NCBI GenBank assembly: GCA_003142475.1 | Contig: PLMK01000026.1 | Location: forward strand, 71,299-135,298 | DNA from: Ignavibacteriota bacterium | Lineage (GTDB): Bacteria; Bacteroidota; Ignavibacteria; UBA10030 | Length of the DNA: 64,000 nt | Direction of reading: 5' to 3' | Part shown: positions 17,471 through 26,695 of the stretch, piece after piece | Layout: the number at the start of each line of letters is the position of its first letter | Numbering within the stretch: position 1 is the first letter of the stretch | Made by a program: the position numbers and the translations under genes | Notes under the pieces: model-generated | Database searches by the model: none | Told to the model about the DNA's origin: nothing | What the model saw: only the letters and a program-made list of their open reading frames with translations

Positions 17471-18247
17471 CTATAGTGCTTCTTTCATACGCCGTACCCA
17501 ATCAGCAATCTTCTGTGTTGAATCTCTTCGCGCAATTCTTTGGATAAGTGCACTTCCAATAATGACACCATCTGCATATTGAGCTATGCGATATGCATCA
17601 GCCGGTGTTTTAATGCCAAATCCAACAAGCACAGAATTATTTTTCGCGCTGCGTTTTACTCGCTTCACATATGATTCGATATCGCCAATATTTGAACGCC
17701 CTGTGACTCCGGTGGTTGAAACACAATAGAGAAATCCTGATGAGACCTTATCGATATTCTGAATTCGTTTGCTTGGAGTAGCGGGACTGACCAGAAGAAT
17801 ATCTGCAAGATGATATTTTCGAGTAAGTGATAAAAAACGATCCGATTCCTCCAACGGAACTTCCGGAAGAATAATGCCGTCAACACCGGATTTTACTGCA
17901 TCAGTAAAGAATCGTTCTTTACCGTAATGGAGAATAGGATTGAGATAACCCATCAGGACGATTGGAATATCAGAGTGTTTTCGGATTTCCCTTACGTAAT
18001 CCAGAACATGGTCAAGCGTAATTCCGTTTTTGATGGCCAGCTGTGAGCTTGCCTGAATTACCGGCCCATCTGCCAGCGGATCTGAAAACGGCATACCGAG
18101 TTCAATGATATCTGCACCGCCCTTTTCAATTTCTTTTACAAGCGGAATTGTAGCTTTTAAGGTCGGAAATCCAGCCGTGATAAAGCATACTAACGCTTTT
18201 TCTTTTCTATCAGCGAGAAATTTAAGTTTCTGCGTAATTCTATTCAT
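17471..18247 (-). CDS. trpA: Tryptophan synthase alpha chain
   Basis: [13 protein letters not shown]...[21 protein letters not shown]...VSTTGVTG...VGFGIKTP. Confidence 0.97.
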
Positions 18248-19461
18248 TTCTTTTTCTCCCGAACTGAAAACGCGGTGGAATATGTCATCATATCCTTATC
18301 GCCGCGGCCGGATAGATTGACTACAATAATATCTTTTTTCGATGTTCTTGGTATAAGCATATTAAGATATGCCAATGCATGTGCCGACTCAAGTGCAGGA
18401 ATAATTCCTTCTAATCGCGAAATCAATTTTGCGGCCTCTAGTGCCTGTTTGTCTGTGATCGATACGTACTGAACTCTGCCTAAATCTTTCAACGCGCTGT
18501 GCTCCGGGCCAACGCCAGGATAATCAAGACCGGCTGAGATAGAATGTGCTAATTCAACCTGTCCATTTCTATCTTGAAGCAAATAACTGAAAGCGCCATG
18601 CAAAACGCCGGGTCTTCCTTTTGAAAGTGTCGCCGCATGTTTATTCGTGTTCAATCCGCAACCCGCGGCCTCTACACCTATCATCCGAATATTTTGCCTA
18701 ATGAACGGATAAAACATTCCCATTGCATTACTTCCGCCGCCAACACAAGCGAGAAGAATGGAAGGATATTTATTTTCAGATACACGAATTTGCTTCTGTG
18801 TCTCTTCACCAATTACTGATTGAAAATCCCTCACCATCATCGGATATGGATGCGGACCGACAACAGAACCGATGATATAAAAAGTGTTGTCTACATTCGT
18901 AACCCAATCGCGAATAGCTTCGCTTGTCGCATCTTTTAATGTGCGGCTTCCCGTGGTAACGGGAACAACTTCCGCGCCCAGCATTTTCATCCTATGCACA
19001 TTTAATTCCTGCCGATGAATATCTTCTTCTCCCATATACACTACACACGGTAATCCCATTTTTGCTGCGACCGTTGCTGTTGCAACGCCATGCTGCCCTG
19101 CACCTGTTTCTGCAATAATACGTTTCTTGCCTGCGCGTTTCGCCAATAAAATCTGGCCTATTGTGTTATTGATTTTATGTGCGCCAGTGTGGCAAAGATC
19201 TTCGCGCTTCAAATAGATTTTCCCATGCCCGTAATGTTCTGATAATCGATTTGCAAAGGTCAATGGTGTTGGACGCCCCGCATACGTGTGCAACATCGCA
19301 ACAAATTCTTTTTTGAATCCAGAATCGCGTTTCGCCTCTCGATAAATTTCCTCAAGCTCGAACAACGCGTGCATTAATGTCTCTGGCACAAACCTGCCGC
19401 CGTAATTGCCAAAGTAGCCGAGCTTGTTCGGATAGTTGTAGGAGTATTTTTGTGATTTCAT
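18244..19461 (-). CDS. trpB: Tryptophan synthase beta chain
   Basis: [16 protein letters not shown]...[17 protein letters not shown]...[15 protein letters not shown]; 4-bp overlap with trpA. Confidence 0.98.
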
Positions 19462-19497
19462 TTTTGCAATTCCTTGTTCTATATCCTTATTGAGATG

Positions 19498-20115
19498 TCA
19501 AACATTTTTCACTTGTTTGAGCAATTCAAACAGTAATCTTAATTTTCCATGGTCTTTCTTCCCTGGGTATTCCTCAACGCCGCTATTCACATCCACAGCA
19601 TACGGTCGTACTTTTTGTACTGCTTCAATAATATTCTCCGGTTTCAATCCACCGGCAAGGATAACGCGCCCGTATTCCTTTGCTTTGACGGCTATTTCCC
19701 AATCAAATTTCTGGCCGGTACCGCCCAATTCGCCGGAAATCTTTGTATCTAAGAGATACGCTGATCCTTTATATCGTCGAAGAATTTCCGGGTTAAAACT
19801 GGAATCAACGCGGAACGACTTATACACAGGCACCGGAAAACTGGTAAGCTGTTTTGGTTTCTCATTTCCATGAAGCTGAATGCATCTGATACCTGTTTGT
19901 TCGATCACTCCAATAATTTCTTCTTGTGATACATCGACGAATATTCCGACAGGAACTATAAATGGCGGTAACTTCTGTATAATTTTTCGCGCAGCTTTTG
20001 GAGCAATATACCGCAGACTTGATTTGACAAAAATAAAACCTATTGCATCAGCACCAAGTTCTGCCGCATACAGCGCATCATCAATATTTGTGATACCACA
20101 TACTTTAACTTTCAC
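19498..20115 (-). CDS. trpF: Phosphoribosylanthranilate isomerase
   Basis: MKVKVCGITNIDDALYAAELGADAIGFIF...IQLHGNE...LAGGLKPENI...VDVNSGVE. Confidence 0.97.
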   Translation of the reverse strand: MKVKVCGITNIDDALYAAELGADAIGFIFVKSSLRYIAPKAARKIIQKLPPFIVPVGIFVDVSQEEIIGVIEQTGIRCIQLHGNEKPKQLTSFPVPVYKSFRVDSSFNPEILRRYKGSAYLLDTKISGELGGTGQKFDWEIAVKAKEYGRVILAGGLKPENIIEAVQKVRPYAVDVNSGVEEYPGKKDHGKLRLLFELLKQVKNV

Positions 20116-20906
20116 TTCAATTTATCCTTTGAAGAGGTCAACAAGGCACGTAATGCTTCACCAGGATTGGATGCTCGCATTAAACTTTCGCCAACAAGAA
20201 CAGCGCGAATGCCATGCGCATTCAGTCGGTCAATGTCTGCTCTGCTTGTAATACCGCTTTCACTGACGATAATGATATCTTTCGGAATTCGAGAAGCGAC
20301 CCGGATGGTTGTCGAAATATCAACGGTGAAATTTGAAAGATTCCGATTATTAATTCCAATAATTTTTGCGGGAATATAATTAAGAATGTTTAGTTCGCGT
20401 ATAGTATGCACTTCCACAAGACATTCTAATCCAAGTTCAACCGCTTCCTTATATAAATCGCGCAATCGTTCGGGTTTCAACGCCGCCGCGATCAACAGCA
20501 CAGCATCGGCCCCGAATGCTTTAGCTTCCGCAAGCTGGTACGAATCTATAATAAAATCTTTCCGCAGAATTGGAATTGGCACCGATGATCGAATATCTGC
20601 GATGAAGTGAATATCTCCTTGAAAATATTTTTCATCCGTTAGCATCGAAAGAGCACTGGCACCGCCACTAACATAGTTACGTGCAATTTCCAGCGGATCA
20701 AAGTCTTCACGGATGACTTTCTTTGAAGGCGATGCTTTTTTAATCTCCGCAATAACTGCAATATCTTTTCCATCTAAAGATTTTTGTAATGAAAGACACT
20801 GCCGTGCAAAGTTTAGCATGTCCTTCAGCCGCTCTACCGGAATTGTTCTTTTAGCAGCCCCAATTTCATGCCGTTTATATTCAAGAATTTCTTCGAGTAT
20901 ATTCAT
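20112..20906 (-). CDS. trpC: Indole-3-glycerol phosphate synthase
   Basis: VIAEIKKASPSKKVIREDFDP...LSMLTDEKYFQG...LRKDFIID...IGINNRNLSNFTVD...VSESGI. Confidence 0.97.
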   Translation of the reverse strand: MNILEEILEYKRHEIGAAKRTIPVERLKDMLNFARQCLSLQKSLDGKDIAVIAEIKKASPSKKVIREDFDPLEIARNYVSGGASALSMLTDEKYFQGDIHFIADIRSSVPIPILRKDFIIDSYQLAEAKAFGADAVLLIAAALKPERLRDLYKEAVELGLECLVEVHTIRELNILNYIPAKIIGINNRNLSNFTVDISTTIRVASRIPKDIIIVSESGITSRADIDRLNAHGIRAVLVGESLMRASNPGEALRALLTSSKDKLK

Positions 20907-21916
20907 GATTGATTTGTATACTGAATAAGTTTTTGCAATTTATCTAATGCTTTACCGGAATTAATTGAATCTTGGGCTTTTTGTTTCCCTTCGAGGATCG
21001 TTTTCACTTTTCCTGAAACATAAATTCCAAGTGCTGCGTTCGCAACAACGACATCACGCGCAGGACTATTTCCGCCTTTTAATACATTCATTGCGATGAG
21101 CGCATTTGCATTCTTATCGCCGCCGCGAAAATTATCTAGTATCAGCTGCGCAAAACCAAAGTCCTCCGGCTGTAAATGAAATTCACGTTGTTGTTCATTC
21201 TTATTTACTTCCTGGACTTTTGTTCCACCCGAGAGCGTAACTTCATCCAGGCCGTCATCGCTGTGGACGACGCATGCTTTATCGGTGTCAAGTTTTTGCA
21301 GAGCACCAGCAAGTAAATGCATTGCACGTTGATGATATGTTCCAACTAACTGCCGTTTCACGCCCGCAGGATTGGTAAGCGGACCGAGAATATTGAAAAT
21401 ACTTCGCACTCCTAATTCTGTGCGCGGCTTTGCGGCGTATTTCATTGCTGGGTGGTACAGCGGTGCGAATAAGAATCCGATGCCTATGCGATTAATACAT
21501 GTCTGCACAGTTTCAGCAGAACATTGAATATTCACTCCAAGTGCCGTTAGCACATCTGCACTACCACATTGACTTGAAACAGAACGATTACCATGCTTTG
21601 CAACTGTGACTCCGGCACCCGCTGCCACAAATGAGGCAACTGTCGAAATGTTAAACGTGCCCGAACAATCGCCGCCAGTGCCGCACATATCAATTGCATC
21701 TGGATCTTCTATGGAAATCTTGACAGCATGCTCGCGCATCGTGCGGGCAAAACCAACGAGTTCATCCACAGTTTCGCCTTTCGCACGTAGAGCAATCATG
21801 AGGCCGGCAATTTGACAATCGGTTGCCTGTCCGGTCATTATGGTATCCAGTGCGTTTGACGCTTCCGCCACTGTCAGGTGTTCCCCCGATAGACATTTTT
21901 CAATGTGTGTTTTCAT
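20903..21916 (-). CDS. trpD: Anthranilate phosphoribosyltransferase
   Basis: DMCGTGGDCSGTFNISTVASFVAAGAGVTVAKHGNRSVSSQCGSADVLTALGV...RSIFNILGPLTNP. Confidence 0.97.
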   Translation of the reverse strand: MKTHIEKCLSGEHLTVAEASNALDTIMTGQATDCQIAGLMIALRAKGETVDELVGFARTMREHAVKISIEDPDAIDMCGTGGDCSGTFNISTVASFVAAGAGVTVAKHGNRSVSSQCGSADVLTALGVNIQCSAETVQTCINRIGIGFLFAPLYHPAMKYAAKPRTELGVRSIFNILGPLTNPAGVKRQLVGTYHQRAMHLLAGALQKLDTDKACVVHSDDGLDEVTLSGGTKVQEVNKNEQQREFHLQPEDFGFAQLILDNFRGGDKNANALIAMNVLKGGNSPARDVVVANAALGIYVSGKVKTILEGKQKAQDSINSGKALDKLQKLIQYTNQS

Positions 21917-22488
21917 AAGATTTTATAAACCTCCAGCCAGTTATTAAGAATTAATTCACCATCCTGCGTAAGAACTGATTCAGGATGAAATTGAATTCCT
22001 TCGATGGGATACTTCCGGTGCGTCACACCCATAATGATGCCGTCGTGTGTGCGGGCGGATATTTTAAGTTCATCAGGAAATTGTTCCGGTGAAACGACAA
22101 GTGAGTGATAACGCCCTACGCGTAATGGGTTCGACACCGATTTGAGAATGGTCTCACCGGAATGTGTTACCGTTGAAGTTCTTCCATGCATAAGCGAAGG
22201 CGCGTGTGTAATATGCGCGCCAAAAGCAAAACCAATTGCCTGGTGGCCAAGGCACACACCAAGAATCGGAATTGTTGAACCGAAACGTTGAATCACTTCC
22301 ACTGTCATGCCGGCATTTTCCGGCTTACCGGGGCCCGGAGAGAGAATAATACCGCGCGGTGCAAGCTTTGCTATTTCATCGGAAGTAAATTCATTATTTC
22401 GTTTCACAAGAATGTTCTGCGTTTTCTTGCCGATTGCCTGCACAAGATTATACGTGAATGAATCATAATTATCGATTACAAGAATCAT
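21913..22488 (-). CDS. trpG: Anthranilate synthase component II (glutamine amidotransferase)
   Basis: LVIDNYDSFTYNLVQ...LSPGPGKPENAG...ILGVCLGHQAIGFAFG...GIQFHPESVLT. Confidence 0.97.
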   Translation of the reverse strand: MILVIDNYDSFTYNLVQAIGKKTQNILVKRNNEFTSDEIAKLAPRGIILSPGPGKPENAGMTVEVIQRFGSTIPILGVCLGHQAIGFAFGAHITHAPSLMHGRTSTVTHSGETILKSVSNPLRVGRYHSLVVSPEQFPDELKISARTHDGIIMGVTHRKYPIEGIQFHPESVLTQDGELILNNWLEVYKIL

Positions 22489-23990
22489 TGCCGTCCTCCA
22501 GAATATCCGTTACCGCTGTGAATTTTCATGAGTCCATTCGATGCAACGGCGAGCGCATCGAGTAACGCCTGCGCTTTGTTCACAGTTTCTTTATACTCAA
22601 GGTCCGGAACTGAATCCGCAACTATGCCCGCGCCTGCTTGAATGGTCAGCATATCGTTCGCCGCAACAATCGTCCTAATCGCAATGCACGTATCAAGCGC
22701 GCCATCGAAGCCGAGATAGCCAACTGCGCCAGCGTAAATTCCACGCCGCACCGGTTCTAATTCGTTGATAATTTCCATTGCGCGGACTTTCGGAGCGCCG
22801 GAAACAGTGCCGGCAGGAAAGCAAGCCCGCAGCGCATCTATACTATTTGCATCCGCTTTAAGCTTTCCCTGCACTTCAGAAACCAAATGCATCACATGCG
22901 AAAATCGTTTTATGCTTTTAAAAACCGTAACATGCACAGAGCCGTATTCGCTCACGCGTCCGATATCGTTGCGCCCCAAATCAACTAACATCACATGTTC
23001 TGCTGCTTCCTTTTCATCGCGTAACAATTCTTCTTCTAAAAGTTTGTCTTCTTGTTCAGTTTTGCCGCGCTTGCGTGTGCCTGCAATCGGCATCACAGCA
23101 ACAACGCGATTCTGCACACGCACTAAAACTTCCGGTGAGGAACCGATGAGCTTTACAGATCCGTAGTCGAGATAAAAAAGATATGGAGATGGATTGATAA
23201 TGCGAAGGGCGCGATAGACAGGAAACGGATCGCCGGAGAATCGAACTTGCACTCGGCGCGAAAGAACAACCTGGAAGATGTCGCCTTCGTGGATGTATTC
23301 CTTCGCGCGCTTGACCGATGAACAAAATGTCTCACGATCGGCGCCGTGTTGAATGGAAGCGAGATCACATTGAAAACTATTCTCCAGGACAGGCGGTTTG
23401 CCAAGCTGAGCAAGAATACCCGTCAGTATTTTTACTCCTCCATTATACTGATCGTTCAGTGGCCGGTTATTTTCGACAAGAATGTTATGCGTAACCGTCA
23501 ATAACTGCTGAAGGTGATCAAATTTCACAACAGATTGGAACAAGCCGAACATTGCATCAGGCACATCATCCTCGGCTGGCGAATGCAAAGGAATATTTTC
23601 AATTTCCTGGACACGGTCGTAGCCGAAGTAACCAAGGAATCCGCCTGTAAATCCTTGCTGTTCTTGTGTAGCCACGCTTCGGTATCGGTGCGATAACTCG
23701 TCCAGCACATCAAGGATTTTTCCACGGCGCTGCTCTTTTTTCCCGTCAGATTCAATTTCAACAACATCACCTTTTGCTTTGATAACTAGAAGCGGATCTG
23801 TTCCGACAAACGAAAACCGCCCGATTCGCTCATCTGGTTCAACACTTTCAAGAAGAAATGAATGCAAGATTTTCGACCGAAGTGTCAGATAAATAGATAC
23901 CGGTGTGTGTAAATCGGCAAGCATCGTTTCCACAAGAGGAACGACCGAATATGTTTGTGCAAGTTCTTTAAATTCTTCTTCTGTAATCAT
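22485..23990 (-). CDS. trpE: Anthranilate synthase component I
   Basis: HSFLLESVEPDERIGRFSFVG (LLES feedback motif), NPSPYLFYLDYG, FPAGTVSGAPKVRAMEII, QAGAGIVADS; 4-bp overlap with trpG. Confidence 0.97.
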   Translation of the reverse strand: MITEEEFKELAQTYSVVPLVETMLADLHTPVSIYLTLRSKILHSFLLESVEPDERIGRFSFVGTDPLLVIKAKGDVVEIESDGKKEQRRGKILDVLDELSHRYRSVATQEQQGFTGGFLGYFGYDRVQEIENIPLHSPAEDDVPDAMFGLFQSVVKFDHLQQLLTVTHNILVENNRPLNDQYNGGVKILTGILAQLGKPPVLENSFQCDLASIQHGADRETFCSSVKRAKEYIHEGDIFQVVLSRRVQVRFSGDPFPVYRALRIINPSPYLFYLDYGSVKLIGSSPEVLVRVQNRVVAVMPIAGTRKRGKTEQEDKLLEEELLRDEKEAAEHVMLVDLGRNDIGRVSEYGSVHVTVFKSIKRFSHVMHLVSEVQGKLKADANSIDALRACFPAGTVSGAPKVRAMEIINELEPVRRGIYAGAVGYLGFDGALDTCIAIRTIVAANDMLTIQAGAGIVADSVPDLEYKETVNKAQALLDALAVASNGLMKIHSGNGYSGGRQ

Positions 23991-24008: not shown

Positions 24009-24041
24009 AAAAAACCCTTCCAGGGTGATCCGGGAAGGGTT
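24009..24041 (-). terminator. trp attenuator: intrinsic terminator upstream of trpE
   Basis: Minus strand AACCCTTCC-CGGATCACCCT-GGAAGGGTT followed by TTTT; perfect 9-bp stem ending 18 bp upstream of the trpE start. Confidence 0.85.
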
Positions 24042-24069
24042 AAGAATACAATCTGCGTATGCTTATGAG

Positions 24070-24165
24070 TTAACTATCCGTTTTCATACCTGTTCGTTTG
24101 GATACACTACTGCGCCACCACCAACGGTTGATTGAAGAGACGATATGATTAACGGATTGTGACAT
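24070..24165 (-). CDS. trpL: trp operon leader peptide MSQSVNHIVSSINRWWWRSSVSKRTGMKTDS
   Basis: 31-codon ORF with three tandem TGG codons (plus strand CCACCACCA at 24115-24123), stop 28 nt before the terminator stem; lies between promoter and attenuator; below the ORF-track length cutoff. Confidence 0.85.
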   Translation of the reverse strand: MSQSVNHIVSSINRWWWRSSVSKRTGMKTDS

Positions 24166-24178
24166 ACTTTACATCAGT

Positions 24179-24207
24179 AATATACGTGATCGGTGGAAAG
24201 AAGTCAA
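24179..24207 (-). promoter_or_regulatory. sigma70-like promoter of the trp operon
   Basis: Minus strand TTGACT (24207-24202) - 17 nt - TATATT (24184-24179), close to E. coli consensus, just upstream of the leader ORF. Confidence 0.75.
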
Positions 24208-26146: not shown

Positions 26147-26695
26147 TCACCACAGTGGAATATTATCTGGATCATCTCTTTTGATTGACCATTGGAGAAT
26201 ATTATTATGAATGTAATCCTTGATATTATTTAATTCCTTGTCGTTACGGATGATACGATCGTAATACCTTTTTTGCCAAACAGGAAATGATGGTGTATGC
26301 CGCATTTCATTAATTCGCTTTGTTGCCACCGATTTGAATCCCGCAATGATAGAACCCAATGATCGGGGTTTCCTTTGTAGGGACGCACAGCTGTGCGTCC
26401 CTACGTTTGGAATTGGCAATTCCTCTTTGATCACGATGATGCCGTGTATATGATTGGGCATGATAACATAAACATCCAATTCTATCCCAGTGCGTATATT
26501 TGGTGTTCTTAACCATTCTTCCCGCACAATCTTTCCGATTTCATTCAATCGCATCTGTTCACTCGCAATTTCGCCTAAAGTACATTCATGGTCATACGTA
26601 CAAATGGTTACAAAATATTCTCCCGGCTGGGAGTAATCGTGCTCCTTTAATCGAATAGATCTTCGGTCGTGTTGGTTTAATGTTTTCATTGGCAC
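26147..26695 (-). mobile_element. REP-associated tyrosine transposase (RAYT, Y1/HUH family)
   Basis: GEYFVTICTYDHECTLGEI...VIMPNHIHGIIVI (HUH motif)...RSLGSIIAGFKSVATKRIN...WQKRYYDRIIRNDKELNNIKDYIHNNILQW. Confidence 0.92.
26377..26404. repeat. Perfect 28-bp palindrome inside the RAYT coding sequence
   Basis: GTAGGGACGCACAG|CTGTGCGTCCCTAC, exact inverted repeat with no spacer. Confidence 0.95.

Follow-up and report, generated by a model that had tools for sequence, protein, structure and literature searches.

A predicted leader-peptide attenuator at the head of contiguous trp operons in an Ignavibacteriota bacterium and its relatives

The contiguous trpEGDCFBA operon of this Ignavibacteriota bacterium raises the question of whether, and how, its transcription is adjusted to the supply of tryptophan. 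In the window, i.e. the whole stretch of 64,000 nucleotides that was analysed, trpE, the first gene of the operon, lies on the minus strand (22485-23990, ATG at 23990), and it is followed on the same strand by trpG, trpD, trpC, trpF, trpB and trpA (17471-22488), which were named from sequence and whose homologues are ordered alike in relatives. All features upstream of trpE described here are also on the minus strand. A TTGACT-N17-TATATT promoter (24179-24207), the best promoter-like match of the region (10/12), has a -10 box that ends 13 nt 5' of the ATG of an ORF of 31 codons plus stop (24070-24165; MSQSVNHIVSSINRWWWRSSVSKRTGMKTDS; ATG at 24165, TAA at 24072-24070). This ORF contains three consecutive Trp codons, TGG TGG TGG (24115-24123), and between it and trpE lies an intrinsic terminator (24009-24041) with a 9-bp stem, an 11-nt loop and a T run, AACCCTTCC-[CGGATCACCCT]-GGAAGGGTT-TTTT, of predicted stability -15.9 kcal/mol. 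The first-pass annotation had reported the promoter, the ORF, the Trp codons, the terminator and trpE at these coordinates, all of which are exact on the minus-strand sequence. In a ribosome-mediated transcription attenuator, one looks for a short ORF containing codons for the amino acid that the operon produces, and for an intrinsic terminator between that ORF and the first gene; both are present, and judging from the sequences such a device very probably controls trpEGDCFBA. Since the fold of the leader of the source genome alone has only a modest z-score (-1.9), it is the comparison with relatives that carries the weight.

The trpE genes of the genus have diverged to ~78% identity, yet the 31-codon ORF is kept in all six genomes, with three consecutive Trp codons (four in G002) and a nearly identical terminator. 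At the level of the order, a leader with Trp codons followed by a terminator was found at the head of the operon in 29/29 genomes in which the trp operon is contiguous and the DNA upstream of it could be read, i.e. the six of the genus and 23 more, from five families in all. The proposal of a trp attenuation leader 5' of trpE thus gains strong support from the upstream regions of relatives, in which the ORF and terminator recur. The weakest of the 29 leaders has a single Trp codon, in the context YWR (G034). In two genomes, G009 and G006, no leader directly precedes trpE, which is explained by a trpB-like gene (TIGR01415) that heads the operon; the leader and terminator precede that gene. Conversely, in the 20 genomes of the order with split trp operons (trpEG apart from trpC), none has the leader before trpEG, and no shared leader layout was found at the trpD-C-F-B clusters of the 14 split-operon genomes checked. 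Two ORFs with WW near trpD (G035 and G016) were judged to be spurious, as they share no layout. Thus, the element goes with the contiguous operon. In samples of the class and the phylum, most of the loci that were read have a leader of this kind. The layout is also shared by a Neomarinimicrobiota locus (L040), where the 2:3 pairing (see below for region numbers) is strong.

The distances between the parts are conserved as well. The last Trp codon is separated from the stop codon by 36-48 nt in 23/25 leaders of the order (exceptions: 24 nt in G050 and 6 nt in G047), and the stop codon from the terminator by 21-39 nt in 24/25 (43 nt in G047). The first-pass annotation had claimed the enterobacterial trpL layout, which does not hold here: those 36-48 nt downstream of the last Trp codon still belong to the ORF, and region 2 of the switch lies inside it. 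On the promoter side, the 17-nt spacing and the short distance from the -10 box to the ATG recur in the order. In 24/25 leaders, 5-17 nt (median 10) separate the end of the -10 box from the ATG, and G039 has no clear promoter; for G029, G021 and G060, the ATG just 3' of the -10 box was taken as the leader start. With transcription starting ~7 nt past the -10 box, the promoter matches imply that the leader mRNA would begin at the start codon or within ~10 nt of it. In the source genome, transcription is expected to start at ~24172, and the leader ORF would be near-leaderless.

We then asked which parts of the leader pair with each other. Region 1 was defined as the part of the ORF that precedes the Trp codons, region 2 as the ORF past the Trp codons to just beyond the stop codon, and region 3 as the 5' arm and loop of the terminator. 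An attenuator is expected to have a region 2 that pairs with both regions 1 and 3, without any need for 1:3 pairing. The limits were set after inspection of the first sequences and applied unchanged to a second set of 30 phylum members, which followed a set of 19 relatives; phylogeny was handled by the choice of representatives alone. Exchange of partners between genomes weakened 2:3 (own partners -286 versus -224 +/- 11, with 0/20000 permutations as good), also in a reduced set of 13 representatives (p = 5e-5), and it weakened 1:2 (-440 versus -342 +/- 15, 0/20000). It had no effect on 1:3 (p = 0.19 and 0.75) or on the pairing of the spacer after the stop codon with region 3 (p = 0.14). Comparison with dinucleotide shuffles, which control for base composition, gave the same picture, both in the order (p = 1.9e-6 for 1:2 and 4.8e-5 for 2:3) and in the 30 other phylum members (p = 1.9e-6 and 1.3e-7, respectively), with no excess of 1:3 pairing in either set (p = 0.82 and 0.72). 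G050, G080 and G039 show no 2:3 signal individually. At the family level, region 2 is therefore a partner common to regions 1 and 3, and the predicted antiterminator 2:3 is mutually exclusive with both the terminator (3:4) and the protector helix 1:2.

In the source genome, region 1 at the start of the ORF (24142-24160; AC.AUCCGUU..UCAUAUC) and region 2 at its end (24073-24092; CAGGUAUGAAAACGGAUAGU) flank the Trp codons, and helix 1:2 joins 24160-24142 with 24090-24073, for a whole fold of -22.3 kcal/mol. The 2:3 pairing joins 24092-24074 with 24037-24021 in region 3 (-12.6 kcal/mol); taken alone, it is suggestive only (z = -1.4, p = 0.08). We considered AGAACGG/CCnUUC as the sole antiterminator of the genus. 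Its letters are present, but CAGG..UGA..CGG..AG folds better with the loop and arm of the terminator, so the exact register given for 2:3 is tentative. According to our model, transcription would begin a few bases 5' of the leader ATG, with immediate translation of the ORF. When charged tRNA-Trp is scarce, the ribosome would stall on the three Trp codons, having already opened helix 1:2, so that region 2, further down the ORF, would be free to pair with the 5' arm and loop of the terminator, and the polymerase would read into trpE. As the terminator (-15.9 kcal/mol) is stronger than 2:3, antitermination can work only if 2:3 is the first to form. With ample tryptophan, the ribosome would reach the stop codon and itself cover region 2, and the terminator would form; it would form as well without translation, with region 2 taken by region 1. 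We infer translation, stalling and the response to tryptophan from these sequence features.

The first-pass annotation had proposed another switch, in which TATCC (24104-24100) pairs with GGATA (24079-24075), and GGA..GTTAA (24079-24070) pairs instead with TTAAC..TCC on the terminator arm. The letters are indeed present and complementary, and they are kept in most members of the genus, GTTAA/TTAAC in all of them. However, the pairings are weak (-1.9 kcal/mol for the former, -1.5 and at best -3.6 kcal/mol for the latter), TATCC is missing from G002 and CO62, and the family-wide signal sits elsewhere, between ORF start and ORF end (1:2) and between ORF end and the terminator arm and loop (2:3). 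That attenuation operates through the pairings proposed earlier is thus unlikely; in the genus, they may contribute alongside the main pairings. We also considered that, besides its action in cis, the released leader RNA or its peptide might act in trans, like rnTrpL and peTrpL of Sinorhizobium meliloti. A near-leaderless small mRNA that ends at the terminator would resemble rnTrpL, which starts with the ATG of trpL (PMC7298713), whereas the peptides differ between families outside the Trp run while the RNA pairings are kept. This suggests selection on the RNA rather than on the peptide, and makes an additional role in trans quite unlikely.

Control by tryptophan through another known device, TRAP, a T-box or TrpR, appears very unlikely. 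The source genome (G000) does carry a gene of the TrpR superfamily (PF01371), but this sole member of the superfamily is of the YerC/YecD type and adjoins hisG; no dedicated TrpR was found. No TRAP gene was detected in 98 genomes of the order with a control that worked, and the leader lacks the multiple NAG repeats of a TRAP-type leader, with just two (G/U)AG triplets. The T-box model gave no match, nor did any other Rfam family at its gathering score on the window or on 20 relatives, and a search of the leader at E = 10 returned nothing credible. RF00513 (Trp_leader) fires on the E. coli control with 93 bits; the leader stays below its gathering cut-off. Finally, the Trp codons could have arisen by chance in a meaningless ORF, with a terminator that serves only to shield the operon from transcription coming from upstream. 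The modest z-score of the leader fold and the abundance of small ORFs would fit, but conservation, spacing, co-evolution of the pairings and the operon-linked distribution contradict this. Moreover, the promoter match is found 3' of the upstream gene, and a terminator at this place would therefore halt transcripts of the operon itself as well. We regard the likelihood of this explanation as close to nil. Apart from these considerations, the YerC/YecD-type gene (G000:C30:49811-50683, L263) is found directly 5' of hisG in 6/6 genomes of the genus and is likely a histidine regulator. A TTGACA shortly precedes its start codon, so a short 5' UTR is possible for the hisG operon as well.

We also examined the relationship between the sensor codons and the gene content of the operons. 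In the genus the operon has trp genes only, and the leaders of G000 and G002 have no Tyr or Phe codon ahead of the last Trp codon. In several families, aroF (DAHP synthase) lies between trpF and trpB; tyrA is added in three families, and aroB, aroDE, aroA and aroC/chorismate mutase in some. The leaders of these aro-containing operons include WYWSYWY (G038), FWYWYWF (G043), WYWFWYRWY (G063) and YYTYYRQAFYYPYWW (G047). The number of Tyr and Phe codons up to the last Trp codon rises from trp-only operons to those with aroF and further to those with aroF and tyrA (Spearman 0.67, p = 0.003 in the order; 0.46, p = 0.004 for all; kinship was ignored). The exceptions are G302 and G403, which have Tyr/Phe codons, yet no aroF was found. 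The genus has two unlinked DAHP synthase genes, and no aromatic-codon leader was found upstream of either. The codon content points to a single leader that probably senses several amino acids, Trp, Tyr and Phe. The operons of family f3 (L126, L127, L128, L129, L160 and L161) have the joint arrangement trpEGDCF-aroF-trpBA-aroB-aroDE-aroA-aroC/chorismate mutase-tyrA, L126 having been read to aroC only. In that family, one aromatic-codon leader thus precedes a single run of genes for almost all of the shikimate, Trp and Tyr pathway.

Additional observations were made on these and other loci. Outside the phylum, leaders with two to four consecutive Trp codons precede trpE in Deltaproteobacteria and Smithella records (L056, L058 and L093) and in a Poribacteria record (L039). 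MIKTFNLNNWWWWNLKGRIFRR is an example, and the terminators of such leaders are found at varying distances. In G002 (L111) and G003 (L014), palindromic, repeat-like inserts of ~60-160 nt (cctctcc..aggagaggg) lie between the terminator and trpE. In the window, an ORF at 26147-26695 (minus strand) resembles by eye a REP-associated transposase of the Y1 family, to which the inserts are possibly related. G001 has two trpC genes (G001:C73:2171-2923 and G001:C52:23800-24582), of which the copy nearest to trpE is the more diverged (47% versus 66%), which hints at gene replacement.

Attenuation in response to tryptophan is textbook knowledge. Leader-peptide attenuation was described by Naville and Gautheret in 2010 as known only from Proteobacteria and Actinobacteria, to which they added a case of their own in Firmicutes (PMC2965389). 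In the literature searched, no paper joins Ignavibacteria, tryptophan and leader peptides; the survey of bacterial attenuators by Lopatovskaya et al. 2010 (Mol Biol 44:128), cited in PMC4833913, may already list trp attenuators of Bacteroidetes. Leader-peptide attenuation appears to be the usual device of contiguous trp operons in this large phylum, whose regulation has been little studied, and Rfam does not see the leader. We consider it reasonably likely that these leaders represent a phylum-wide class of attenuators, perhaps one of the whole FCB group, in which a leaderless ORF folds back around its sensor codons, the ribosome at the stop codon masks a region 2 located within the ORF, and the sensor codons follow the content of the operon, leading to a joint reading of Trp, Tyr and Phe before trp-shikimate-tyrA operons. 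Two questions are now directly testable: whether a near-leaderless ORF supports attenuation in these bacteria, and whether one leader integrates the supply of Trp, Tyr and Phe.

The geometry of the leader differs from the textbook case of E. coli. Like the enterobacterial trpL (RF00513), it combines a peptide with tandem Trp codons, a terminator before trpE and alternative 1:2, 2:3 and 3:4 pairings. In E. coli, region 2 lies beyond the ORF, with 12 nt from the beginning of the last Trp codon to the stop codon and 45 nt from there to the terminator, in contrast with 36-48 and 21-39 nt here. The RF00513-type layout, an ORF that ends just past the Trp codons with region 2 beyond its stop, is not that of the present leader, in which region 2 is inside the ORF, region 1 precedes the Trp codons and the start is predicted to be near-leaderless. 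In the latter respect it would be similar to S. meliloti rnTrpL, but the S. meliloti peptide has 14 residues, whereas the ORF here has 31 codons. In Flavobacterium psychrophilum, of the same phylum in the broad sense, a 2021 study described structured 5' regions with hints of leader peptides at amino-acid operons (PMC9723704). The elements named there belong to pheA and hisG rather than trp and come with no switch model. The actinobacterial trp attenuators of Corynebacterium and Streptomyces share double or triple UGG codons, a terminator and conserved complementary triples in antiterminator and terminator; their motif is gGCC-rGCy-GGCC (PMC1262725), whereas here AGAAnGG with CCnUUCU and the like are found, varying by lineage. 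Lastly, the aroR leader of Corynebacterium glutamicum (Phe-Tyr-Phe) similarly places aromatic codons 5' of a DAHP synthase gene, before the aroF operon, and Phe limitation raises transcription while Tyr limitation does not (PMC11802643). In that organism aroR and trpL are separate, whereas here Trp, Tyr and, in many cases, Phe codons share one leader at the head of a joint trp-aro(-tyrA) operon.
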